Shown piece by piece: positions 1-59,508 of a stretch of 64,000 nucleotides of DNA; positions within the stretch are counted from its first letter, which is position 1, and each line of letters opens with the position of its first letter. Both the position numbers and the translations under genes were made by a program. The notes beneath the pieces were generated by a model. It made no database searches. It saw only the letters and a program-made list of their open reading frames with translations, and was not told where the DNA came from. Location of the stretch: positions 1-64,000 of the forward strand of contig CAIWXI010000096.1 in NCBI GenBank assembly GCA_903916595.1, written 5' to 3'. The DNA is from an uncultured Bacteroidales bacterium (GTDB lineage Bacteria > Bacteroidota > Bacteroidia > Bacteroidales > FEN-979).

Positions 1-105
1 CGATGTACGATGTACGATGTACGATGTACGATGTACGATGTACGATGTACGATGTACGATGTAGGATGTACGATGTATGATGTACGATGTACGATGTACG
101 ATGTA
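1..105. repeat. (CGATGTA)n heptamer tandem array, 15 units, probably continuing left of the window
   Basis: Direct reading: cgatgta x9, then ggatgta, cgatgta, tgatgta, cgatgta x3, all in 7-bp phase. Confidence 0.98.
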
Positions 106-120
106 CGAGTCACGCGCCAC

Positions 121-323
121 GTATCCTGCATCCTGCATCCCGCATCCCGCATCCTGCATCCTGCATCCTGCATCCCGCATCCCGCATCCCGCATCCTGCA
201 TCCCGCATCCTGCATCCCGCATCCTGCATCCCGCATCCTGCATCCCGCATCCCGCATCCCGCATCCCGCATCCCGCATCCCGCATCCCGCATCCCGCATC
301 CCGCATCCCGCATCCTGTATCCC
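121..323. repeat. (GCATCC[C/T])n heptamer tandem array, about 29 units
   Basis: Direct reading: units every 7 bp from gtatcct (121) to gtatccc (317-323); only the last base (C/T) varies in the internal units. Confidence 0.98.
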
Positions 324-381
324 GTCACTCCCCTGTTAAAAAATTCACATTGTGATAGATTTTGGGTTTAAGAAAAATGTT

Positions 382-389
382 TATCTTTG
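382..389 (+). promoter_or_regulatory. Putative Bacteroidetes -7 box (TATCTTTG) for the ferredoxin gene
   Basis: Matches TAnnTTTG; a TTTG lies upstream at 361-364; ferredoxin ATG at 445. Confidence 0.45.
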
Positions 390-444
390 CAGCAGGAAAC
401 GTAATTACTAACCAGGCCTGCTTGCAGGCGTAAATTCAATAAAC

Positions 445-57500: not shown

Positions 57501-58497
57501 TTGTTATTTGTGGATAGTTAATGGTCGAAAATGTCGCTAACTCACCGTAAGCTGTTCCCAGTGAATTTATTGCATAGGCCCTCAGGTAATACACAGTATC
57601 AGGGATCAAGCCTTCGATGTTGCTTATAAAGAGCCCGGTATCAGCTCCATTTGTTGTGTGACTGCTGCTCCTGGACGGATTGGGAAGCAGGCTCCAGCAG
57701 ATCCCCTTTGCTGTAACCCCCGAACCCCTGTCGGATGTGACATCTCCGCTACCCGTAGCCGTAGTTATTCCAACGTTGGAAACAGGAAGTGTGATTACCG
57801 CGGGAATAGCCGTGAGTGGGGTCAGTTCAAAGACATATGAAGAATTGCTTCCCGGACTGTCTGTGATTACCTTATCATAATAGTTGGATTTATATGATTT
57901 AAAAAGCAATTCGTCGCCCAGGTGAAAGGAAAAGAACGGATCAGTAAAAGTTGATTTGATACCTGCAGGTTCCGTACCGGTGAACGTAATTCTGTTTTCT
58001 ATACTTCCGTTATTGCTATTTAACAGTTTTATTGTTTTAGTAATTTGGCCATCAGATATTTTGAGGAGCAAAAGACTACTGGTTGAAGACCTGACTTCAA
58101 AGTTGTGCTTCCCTGTGGGAAATGTGTTTTTATATTCAGCTATCGCTTTTCCGCGAGTATCAAAGACACTTAAACCCAGAGTCCCTCCATGATTCATTAT
58201 TACCTGCACATTTGTTTTTCCGCTGAAAGGGTTAGGGACAGCAGGAAGTACTGAAAATGATTCGGGGATTTGTGATGTCTGATTTCCTATTCCGGAGGAG
58301 ACAGAAATGACCAGTGATGGAGCACTCCCGCTAAGGATAGTATCACATCCCCGGGTAGTGTTCTGAACATAGACCACTTCCAGAGGTACAATGGCGCTGG
58401 TGTACACATCCTTGCCACTAAATGTAAGAGTGAGATTTTGACCAATTCCGATTAGTGTATACAGACTAAAAAGAATTAACAAAAACAATGTTCGCAT
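54574..58497 (-). CDS. Exported repeat protein: N-terminal T9SS-sorting-like domain, about 10 FN3-like repeats, C-terminal FISUMP domain
   Basis: PNPFSGKTNVQVIMNHGGTLGLSVFDTRGKAIAEY near N-terminus; repeated VTARGVCWSTSPNPTTADS...ITGLTxGTxYYVRAYATNSxGTxYG; C-terminal QIGIQCWFRDNLNVGNRI...GLCPAGWHLPSDAEYNLL. Confidence 0.85.
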   Translation of the reverse strand: MRTLFLLILFSLYTLIGIGQNLTLTFSGKDVYTSAIVPLEVVYVQNTTRGCDTILSGSAPSLVISVSSGIGNQTSQIPESFSVLPAVPNPFSGKTNVQVIMNHGGTLGLSVFDTRGKAIAEYKNTFPTGKHNFEVRSSTSSLLLLKISDGQITKTIKLLNSNNGSIENRITFTGTEPAGIKSTFTDPFFSFHLGDELLFKSYKSNYYDKVITDSPGSNSSYVFELTPLTAIPAVITLPVSNVGITTATGSGDVTSDRGSGVTAKGICWSLLPNPSRSSSHTTNGADTGLFISNIEGLIPDTVYYLRAYAINSLGTAYGELATFSTINYPQITTDSITAITDNSAISGGNVISDGGAPVTARGVCWSTLHNPTTTDSITIDSSGTGTFTSNITGLTLGTVYYVRAYASNKGGSGYGLERSFKTIDLPTVTTVLVYHITRTTASCDGNLIAYGGDTSTFRGVCWSNLPHPTNTGAHTVNGSGLGSYTGEVTGLTENTKYYIRAYATNSAGTRYGNELDFTTPTYAAVETAVVTNINQNSATGGGQVTFDGGIPVTARGVCWSTSQSPTTADNHTADGAGTGPFTSNMTSLTWGTLYHIRAYAINNVGTSYGNERTFTTLSTPSVTTAAVTNITLTTATSGGNVTSEGGAPVTARGVCWSTSPNPTTADSLTANGTGIGMFLSSITGLTGGTLYHLRAYAINSFGTEYGGELTFTTTNLPTLTTSAVTNITQTTAVSGGNITSTGGSPVIARGVCWSTLTDPAITDSLTADGSGAGSFVSNITGLTTGVEYYVRAYATSSIGTAYGNQHVFTTLSVPTLVTTVPSGITRTSAISGGDITSDGGSPVTVRGVCWSITPVPTTAGSHTTDGSDTGTFVSNITGLTSGLTYYLRAYGTNSTGTAYGNELSFTTPDVPTVTTSPVTIVTQTTATLGGNVQSDGGSTVTARGVCWSTAPGPTIANNHTLDGTGIGQYVSNITGLTGGTLYYVRAYATNSTGTSYGLVITFTTFNLATLTTTTVTGITQTTATSGGTIASDGGVDVSARGVCWSTSPNPTTSNNFTSDGSGTGSFVSNITGLVANTIYYLRAYATNAIGTAYGNEINFSTLWPSCPGIPTVVYEGKTYNTVQIGIQCWFRDNLNVGNRINGPVEQINNGIKEKYCFNDLESNCTIYGGLYQWGEVMQYVSTVGAQGLCPAGWHLPSDAEYNLLTAFLGGAGVAGGPLKEAGTTHWASPNTGATNASGFSGLPGGVRNFSTGTFSFLSTSGTFWTSSSYVAGGYDFMKMFRAWNYDATFQEVSTNLGYGVSVKCLKN

Positions 58498-58620
58498 AAT
58501 CTCTATCCTTCGATTTAATCAGATTTATTTTTGACGAGGTACAAAGATATTTACAGAAAGGCAGTTAACACGCAACTGTGAATAAGTAGTGATAAAAAAC
58601 AAACCCGCTTAATGAGCCAC

Positions 58621-59433
58621 TTATATGACTCTCCGTATCATACACAGCTTATGTGTATACTCATGAAGGTCGTTGTGAAAGATGCCATCCTTGTCAATAA
58701 TGTCAACGCGTACCCTGCCTGAACAATGCAGGATCTTCTGTCGGTCGACGAGAATGCCGACATGGATTATTTTACCTTCTTCATTTGAAAAAAATGCCAG
58801 ATCGCCGGGTTCGGCTTCGTCAAGGCTGTTTACTTGTTCACCCTGCTCAGCCTGCTGGGAAGCATCCCGTTTAAGGCGGATGTTTTTTAATTTGTACGCC
58901 ATCTGAACAAGCCCTGAACAGTCAATGCCGAAAAGTGATCGCCCACCCCAGAGATAAGGAGCTCCCAGAAACTGTAAGGCATCATGAACAAGCTCATGCT
59001 TTAATTCGACCATGTTCTCAGGGCCATCTTCGTCATCTTCAAAATCGGAGATCATCGAAACCTGCCCGTCATAAACGAAAGTCTGCTGTGCAAGCTGCAT
59101 ATTAAGTTCTTCTATGTCGGGGAGCGAACTTCCTATCAGTATAGGGTACTGTGATTTCTTTGTTTCATTAGTCACCAGCTGCACCAGGTCCATCGAACAA
59201 CGGGTATCGGCTTCATAGAGGCGCTGAAACTCTTCCCCGTCAAGTGAGGTATGTCCCGAAACATTGATCCAGCCTGTATAATCATCAAAAGCAAGCCTTA
59301 TATTCAGCCAGTTTTCTTCGGTTTTCAAAACAGTGTATAATTCACCAAAAAGAAGCTGAGTGCACATTTCAGCTTTATGCGAGGGTTCCGGGCGTACCGG
59401 GACGATGCTAAGGAGACAGATTCCGTATGACAT
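58621..59433 (-). CDS. NlpC/P60 family cell-wall hydrolase with SH3-like domain
   Basis: FLGAPYLWGGRSLFGIDCSGLVQMAYKLKNIRLKRDASQQAEQGE...GDLAFFSNEEGKIIHVGILVD. Confidence 0.93.
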   Translation of the reverse strand: MSYGICLLSIVPVRPEPSHKAEMCTQLLFGELYTVLKTEENWLNIRLAFDDYTGWINVSGHTSLDGEEFQRLYEADTRCSMDLVQLVTNETKKSQYPILIGSSLPDIEELNMQLAQQTFVYDGQVSMISDFEDDEDGPENMVELKHELVHDALQFLGAPYLWGGRSLFGIDCSGLVQMAYKLKNIRLKRDASQQAEQGEQVNSLDEAEPGDLAFFSNEEGKIIHVGILVDRQKILHCSGRVRVDIIDKDGIFHNDLHEYTHKLCMIRRVI

Positions 59434-59466
59434 ATGATGCAGGTTTTATGCAAAGGTAAGAAATAT

Positions 59467-59508
59467 AGGGATTGGGGATTGGGGATTGGGGGTTAGGATG
59501 GCGGATGG
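59467..59508. repeat. Mixed GGGGATT/CGGATGG heptamer run upstream of the LytTR regulator
   Basis: AGGGATT GGGGATT GGGGATT GGGGGTT AGGATGG CGGATGG. Confidence 0.9.

Follow-up and report, generated by a model that had tools for sequence, protein, structure and literature searches.

What are the short tandem repeats that lie scattered through a stretch of Bacteroidales DNA, and how do they keep their places while their sequences change? The stretch analysed here, which we call the window, comprises positions 1-64000 of the 77.7-kb contig C96 from the genome of an uncultured Bacteroidales bacterium (G000; a 97.8% complete draft of 3.79 Mb in 166 contigs). An earlier note on this DNA had described dispersed, phased 7-bp repeats of several types sharing a GAT core, and had likened them to the cyanobacterial short tandemly repeated repetitive (STRR) sequences. 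Our analysis supports a dispersed heptamer system of several families that resembles STRR, and does so genome-wide: tandem arrays of 7-bp and 8-bp units, whose unit sequences we call words, run through G000 beyond the extent first described, and related species carry arrays at the same sites, or slots, with mostly different words.

We compared G000 with six sister genomes of the same genus (G003 was left out), with which synteny is almost unbroken at a nucleotide identity of roughly 71-84%; further comparison stretches were taken from same-genus and same-order genomes. Orthologous sites could be assigned for 35 G000 arrays; of the resulting 134 sister species-sites, 46 also hold an array and 88 do not, and at the 46 shared sites the words are unrelated in 34 cases, differ by one substitution in 6 and are identical in 6. 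Intergenic gaps that hold an array in G000 are occupied in sisters at a rate of 31/87, as against 8/151 for array-free gaps. With gap size controlled (non-array length 60-300 bp in both species) the figures are 6/21 and 1/73 (odds ratio 29), and counted by gap the mean occupancy is 0.35 versus 0.04 (p = 2.6e-6). Since the arrays share slots yet mostly carry unrelated words, it is the slot that persists and the word that is replaced. Word turnover at conserved slots is in this way shown.

Could one octamer simply have changed stepwise and in concert at homologous sites? Sister slots hold at least 29 octamer motifs in 12.4 kb, some 15 times as many as a background of 0.15 per kb would give, and these motifs occur in sisters at 8/35 of the AAATGGTG sites and at 21/88 of the other sites. 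Because AAATGGTG sites are not enriched for octamer motifs in sisters, we reject this possibility.

How widespread are the arrays, and which unit lengths do they use? In the window they were called by Tandem Repeats Finder (TRF) together with an exact-run scan, and genome-scale counts were made with a soft period detector on about 707 kb of G000. There the detector finds 98 arrays of 7-bp and 58 of 8-bp unit and none with a unit of 5, 6, 9 or 13 bp; its count in the Markov null is 0. Exact period-7 runs number 33 in the window, compared with 1-6 in Markov sequences, and 178 in the 707 kb, compared with 3 in the Markov control, so that the periodicity does extend beyond the window. In the whole genome, three tandem copies (x3) are matched 389 times for GGATGCR and 617 times for AAATGGTG, CGATGTA has 513 matches, and the reversed patterns, run alongside as controls, give 0. 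About 82 of 136 arrays are intergenic although intergenic DNA makes up only ~7% of the sequence (crude open reading frame calls make this share a lower bound), and positions between divergent genes are under-used.

The words form genome-specific palettes. The main words are AAATGGTG, GGATGCR, CGATGTA and AGATATC in G000, AAAAGCG, AAAAGTG and AGCCATG in G002, and AAGTAGCG, AAATAGCG, ACTGCCG and ACGGATC in G004; GGATARCT octamers are main words in both G005 and G006, and GTACATK is among those of G007. Among 8-bp arrays, 41/58 in G000 consist of AAATGGTG, and 10/10 in G004 of AAGTAGCG or AAATAGCG. Two arrays in one sister genome share a word with probability 0.079, two arrays in different genomes with probability 0.014, and the within-genome value was reached by 0 of 2000 label permutations. 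The AAATGGTG x3 pattern has 0-1 matches in each of seven sisters and is absent from 395 other genomes sampled across the phylum; AAATGGTG has 1-21 matches in each of seven other genomes of the family. GGATGCR arrays occur in all seven same-genus genomes and in no sampled genome of another genus (29 from the same family, 24 from the same order); in a contig scan for GGATGCR x3 across taxa, the matches listed were dispersed over phyla and for the most part single or spaced by 21 bp.

Does a GAT core organise these words? It is present in 26 of the 35 distinct 7-bp words of G000, many of them point variants, and is missing from the 8-bp words and most sister words; AAATGGTG, AAAAGCG, AGCCATG, ACTGCCG, AATGTAC and AAGTAGCG all lack it, and as an organising principle it has to be given up. 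The accompanying claim that phase is kept where words meet holds at 8/12 junctions between different GAT words and, among these, at only 2 of the 4 between clearly unrelated words, a real but modest effect of the kind that shared GAT/ATC microhomology would produce through joining or slippage. Likewise the suggestion that three heptamers, at 21 bp, span two helical turns is weakened because 8-bp arrays are similarly abundant (58 versus 98 in the 707 kb) and because unrelated words swap at one slot.

The arrays have a characteristic layout, A-B-A-B-A at fixed phase, for example AAAT-GGTG-AAAT. Arrays of AAATGGTG open with AAAT and close with GAAAT (start phase non-uniform, p = 1.9e-21), most of the listed outer ends conforming, and the octamer arrays of G004, with ends AARTA and GCGAAA, are laid out in the same way. 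GGATGCR arrays have GGAT at both start and end, their phase statistics being confounded by A/G alternation within arrays, and CGATGTA arrays have GA(T) at both. Beyond the array ends the flanks have no sequence in common, for which reason we reject a larger mobile element carrying the arrays. Single A-B-A copies are in excess as well, with 18 of AAATGGTGAAAT (n = 1) and 33 of GGATGCRGGAT against 1 each in the null, part of them being interrupted arrays, and the unit-number distribution has a decaying tail. A minority of arrays form hairpins in which both arms carry the same word. Such same-word inverted pairs all lie within 100 bp, the word in a given slot differs by species (L206:18239, L208:8985), and no unit is common to the hairpin elements. 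A short palindrome, GCGCGAAGCGC or its reverse, lies inside arrays of four species (L156:99, L202:2789, L222:508-563, L225:1264, L233:11027) and is perhaps a tiny insertion module.

Arrays also enter coding genes. The longest of the window, a GGATGCR array of about 28 units at 50133-50345 (minus strand, ATCCCGC on the plus strand; TRF and alignment), forms a hypervariable in-frame insert within aroA (EPSP synthase; 49305-50780, plus strand; Pfam PF00275, E = 2.9e-73) and encodes SRIPHPA repeats. At the same point five sisters have other low-complexity peptides, all in frame, written in five words (TTCCCGG, CACCATCT, AAAAGCG, CAGTCRG and GCCATGAG). The alignment of AroA with the closest solved EPSP synthase (PDB) is interrupted between query residues 270 and 363, and at the insert point the solved protein has a ~25-residue stretch (chain residues 305-331). 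A second array, 9.5 units of AAATGGTG at 50772-50847 (plus; TRF), overlaps the aroA stop codon and has no counterpart in the five sisters. In a glucosaminidase-LysM gene (21606-22640, plus) the N-region of the signal peptide is the translation of an array in all six species, with sister words partly different; in G000 this array passes from GGATGCG to GATATCA (21613-21705, plus; TRF and alignment).

In-frame inserts are found too in an LpxH-like hydrolase and a lipoprotein-like gene. Within the LpxH-like metallophosphoesterase gene (669-1595, minus) a degenerate GGGATTG/GGATGCR insert at 1195-1262 (minus; TRF and sister alignment) differs in length from three sisters by 48, 48 and 42 nt; within the gene at 1498-2280 (minus) a GGATGCR array with a 21-bp higher-order unit (2122-2192, minus; TRF), read in frame as CRMQDAG repeats, is absent in sisters, with length differences of 42, 39 and 45 nt. 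Over four coding sites, 16/16 interspecies length differences, derived by hand from sister alignments, are multiples of 3 (p = 2.3e-8). An O-antigen-ligase-like membrane protein gene elsewhere (L206:10816-12132) has an in-frame array that translates to HHLTRITHHLTRIT.

At several of the remaining arrays of the window, called by TRF, the same exchange of words is seen. The contig starts in a CGATGTA array of 15 units (1-108, plus), upstream of a ferredoxin gene (about 446-612), followed by 29 units of GGATGCR (123-324, minus, reading ATCCYGC on the plus strand), a slot in which sisters have different sequences and G006 a hairpin of GGATARCT words. An intergenic GGATGCR array (3615-3690, minus) abuts the 3' end of a gene at 3695-6100 (minus), and G007 carries GTACATG/GTACATT there. 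An AGATATC/CAGATGG array (12827-12868, plus) sits at the 3' end of an aminotransferase gene (12853-14178, minus), where sisters have AAAGYGA or CGTGATC, and the AAATGGTG array at 36246-36281 (plus; also by sister comparison) is matched in sisters by AAATAGCG/AAAAGCG or GGATARCT. The AAGTAGCG/AAATAGCG octamer array at 9613-9638 (minus; also by sister comparison) has the identical word in 3/5 sister species. Further arrays are a CAGATGG run followed by an 8-bp run of AATCAATC type (6753-6829), the intergenic 8-bp words TGACTGAT/TCATTCAG/TCCTTCAG (8930-9014), a AAATGGTG array with both ends AAAT/ATTT (27056-27107, minus), a TTCAATA/TTCGATA-type array with no GAT (35578-35625), a TTCAACA/TTCAATG array (43253-43302) and a GGGATTG/GGATGGC run between divergent genes (59468-59509, plus).

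Set against this catalogue, the heptamer runs first reported are real at 1-108, 123-324, 2122-2192, 3615-3690, 12830-12867, 21618-21705, 50133-50345 and 59468-59509. Those at 1195-1256 and 6753-6776 are weaker, and those at 3037-3064 and 53409-53429 turn out to be ordinary coding sequence equal in length to the sister orthologues. The earlier inventory missed the 8-bp class, which is just as strong (27056-27107, 36246-36281, 50772-50847, 8930-9014, 9613-9638) as well as the non-GAT heptamers at 35578-35625 and 43253-43302. Tandem repeats of longer period (10, 21 and 15-16 bp) at 2018-2039, 23846-23888 and 25947-25980 stand outside the 7/8-bp system. A dispersed structured element of ~150-200 bp (GCGAAGCATCTCGC... 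CAAGGAACGAAC... GGCGCGACGCAG... GCGATG), possibly a MITE (miniature inverted-repeat transposable element) or small RNA family, adjoins arrays in sisters, at slot 36244-36310 in G001, G006 and G007 and at slot 35575-35635 in G005; no Rfam family was found in the window.

How could such a system arise? We give roughly even chances to the proposal that the arrays are STRR-like satellites that begin as A-B-A seeds, lengthen by 7/8-nt slippage, have their words copied between arrays and are kept where they are tolerated. A short seed would grow by replication slippage, one unit each time, and template switching at microhomologies of 3-4 nt may then carry pieces of an array into a different array or into a site that tolerates them. 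If pieces are copied between loci, one word could spread in a burst across a genome and take the place of earlier words. Quasi-palindrome switching is an established mutational route, and switching onto the opposite arm of an imperfect inverted repeat would place the same word in both arms. Arrays would persist at sites where insertions do little harm, and most likely they are mutational or selfish sequence rather than a regulatory device. Copying between loci we infer from the palettes, and slippage with template switching is favoured because the reverse transcriptase domain RVT_1 has no match in G000 or five sisters and because two genomes that bear AAATGGTG arrays have no match to the Y1 transposase.

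Several points weigh against this proposal. The template-switching step is itself one that we infer, no insertion with a recognisable donor array having been caught, and slippage alone is insufficient to explain either the use of 7 and 8 bp only or the presence of a single word at hundreds of loci. The fixed array boundaries fit a templated or site-specific process too, and a binding factor could partly drive word change. Same-word neighbours in G000 are direct in 22 cases (mostly interrupted arrays) and inverted in 12. Moreover, the 707-kb sample behind the counts of 98 and 58 was in part selected for holding GGATGCR arrays, and the Fisher p-values overstate significance because species-sites are not independent, the per-gap test being the safer.

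What else could fill the slots? A tentative and less likely alternative is that a dedicated trans-acting process in this genus, with no recognisable reverse transcriptase, writes 7- or 8-bp words into fixed slots from a genome-specific set that is exchanged wholesale between species. Rather unlikely, in our judgement, is that the arrays are bound by a DNA- or RNA-binding protein whose specificity differs from species to species, all sites then changing together and selection keeping whole sites and hence fixed ends. Such a factor would suit words that are uniform genome-wide yet different between sisters, whole-site boundaries and conserved slots, and a binding role was proposed for TAACTGA repeats (MacGregor 2015, PMC4679880). 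It sits poorly with several unrelated words per genome, with unrelated words in one slot in the absence of concerted replacement (AAATGGTG sites are not preferentially octamer in sisters), with arrays inside aroA and signal peptides, with depletion between divergent genes, where promoters lie, and with slots so often empty in sisters (88/134 species-sites).

Unlikely, too, is that every locus slipped independently and nothing was copied from one to another, an account put forward for heptanucleotide repeats of bacteria at large. In many bacteria no long simple sequence repeats (SSRs) are as common as heptanucleotides, and a slippage preference for 7 nt, through a 7-nt polymerase contact, was proposed earlier (PMC4679880; PMC4692102). 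However, one word would hardly arise independently at hundreds of loci unless its seed had been dispersed first: AAATGGTG x3 has 617 matches in G000 against 0-1 in seven sisters and none in 395 other phylum genomes, AAATGGTGAAAT-like seeds were tested for and are not preferentially found at the same loci in sisters, and genome-specific palettes already disfavour the idea.

We consider it improbable that the arrays are hairpin arms of small mobile elements that owe their movement to a transposase of the Y1 class (IS200-type, RAYT-like). Each of eight genus genomes has exactly one Y1_Tnp gene, syntenic in the six inspected, and hairpins with same-word arms and the palindromes GCGCGAAGCGC within arrays would fit. 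The likeness to REP/RAYT systems lies in this transposase, single-copy and vertically kept in the genus. Yet most G000 arrays have no inverted partner, neither shared flanks nor target duplications were seen, and G011 and G021 hold AAATGGTG arrays (13 and 6 matches) with no Y1_Tnp match, which leads us to reject Y1 as a necessary factor. The gene itself (L278:5142-5573 on G000:C141; also L279-L283) encodes an IS200-type transposase-like protein of 143 aa between heme O synthase-like and AI-2E-transporter-like genes in the genomes inspected, is preceded by two heptamer-like units (GCGGATG GCGGATT), and looks domesticated, RAYT-like.

Still less probable is reverse transcription of telomerase or DRT10 type, in which an RNA template of form A-B-A' would direct the addition of words at DNA ends, each word having a template of its own. 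The A-B-A-B-A layout with fixed start and end phase matches such templating, and DRT10 makes tandem-repeat cDNA whose units vary in length and sequence (PMC12632851), with words that differ between systems. DRT10, however, needs a reverse transcriptase, and RVT_1 has 0 matches in G000, the genome richest in arrays, and in G001-G005, while the same search finds reverse transcriptases in other relatives; on this ground we reject the origin. Moreover, since each genome has at least a dozen words, as many RNA templates would be needed, DRT10 unit lengths vary whereas arrays here use only 7 and 8, and DRT10 products are not known as chromosomal arrays. An assembly or contamination artefact, which a fragmented draft of 166 contigs and a window that starts inside an array might suggest, is scarcely credible, since like arrays recur in six independently assembled same-genus genomes with conserved synteny, coding arrays keep frame, and most arrays lie within contigs, 3/33 contig ends touching one, on which count contig-end artefacts are rejected.

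How does the satellite system compare with those already described? Like the STRR of Calothrix and Nostoc it has degenerate 7-bp tandem units that fall into several families within one genome and are dispersed, for the most part between genes. Cyanobacterial STRR heptamers include Nostoc GGGGA(C/T)T; GGGATTG, CCCTAAT and CCCCACT occur here, only GGGATTG and CCCCACT resembling that word, and homology is not provable from words so short. In addition to what STRR show, we find a strong 8-bp class (58 arrays), so that the unit is not exclusively 7 bp, species-specific palettes, unrelated words per slot and in-frame arrays in conserved enzymes. The Xanthomonas GGGAATC repeats (Rehm et al. 2015, PMC4692102) are likewise 7-bp, intergenic and under-represented between divergent genes, as reported also for Nostoc; in two species most of them are flanked by the same genes while length and sequence vary, and inverted repeats were noted. 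Site conservation with sequence variation is thus already known (PMC4692102). They form, however, one G-rich, quadruplex-forming family, whereas here there are many families, mostly lacking G-tracts, and the word itself is exchanged: the tract of 3-4 G expected in each unit of a quadruplex former is absent from the main words CGATGTA, AAATGGTG and GGATGCA, and GGG is confined to GGGATTG and to GGATGCG, a variant.

The direct repeats of TAACTGA that occur in marine Beggiatoaceae, in cyanobacteria and in a few Bacteroidetes, some with long arrays (PMC4679880), share the 7-bp unit and a patchy taxonomic spread. There, one word recurs across distant taxa, in many cases immediately upstream of a start codon, with related heptamers rarely repeated; here many words occur per genome, not tied to starts. 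Phase-variation SSRs switch frame in surface genes, whereas these arrays lie in aroA, LpxH-like and other genes with 16/16 length differences in multiples of 3. Our searches of the open-access literature turned up no comparable system in Bacteroidetes, nor did we find described there the 7-plus-8 rule, the genome-specific palettes, the replacement of a word by an unrelated one in the same slot across species, or the in-frame aroA slots.

Long bacterial 7-bp SSRs have been reported for decades, and to our knowledge their unit length and spread have never been explained. The sister genomes, with the same slots, different words, fixed ends and insertions into a core metabolic enzyme, amount to an experiment of nature in which position and sequence can be told apart, and comparing them allows a direct test of how such satellites are born and copied. 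Were a trans-acting process indeed writing the words, it would be the bacterial equivalent of satellite turnover or of repeat addition from a template. More generally, the sharing of slots together with the swapping of words might show how bacterial satellites arise and spread.

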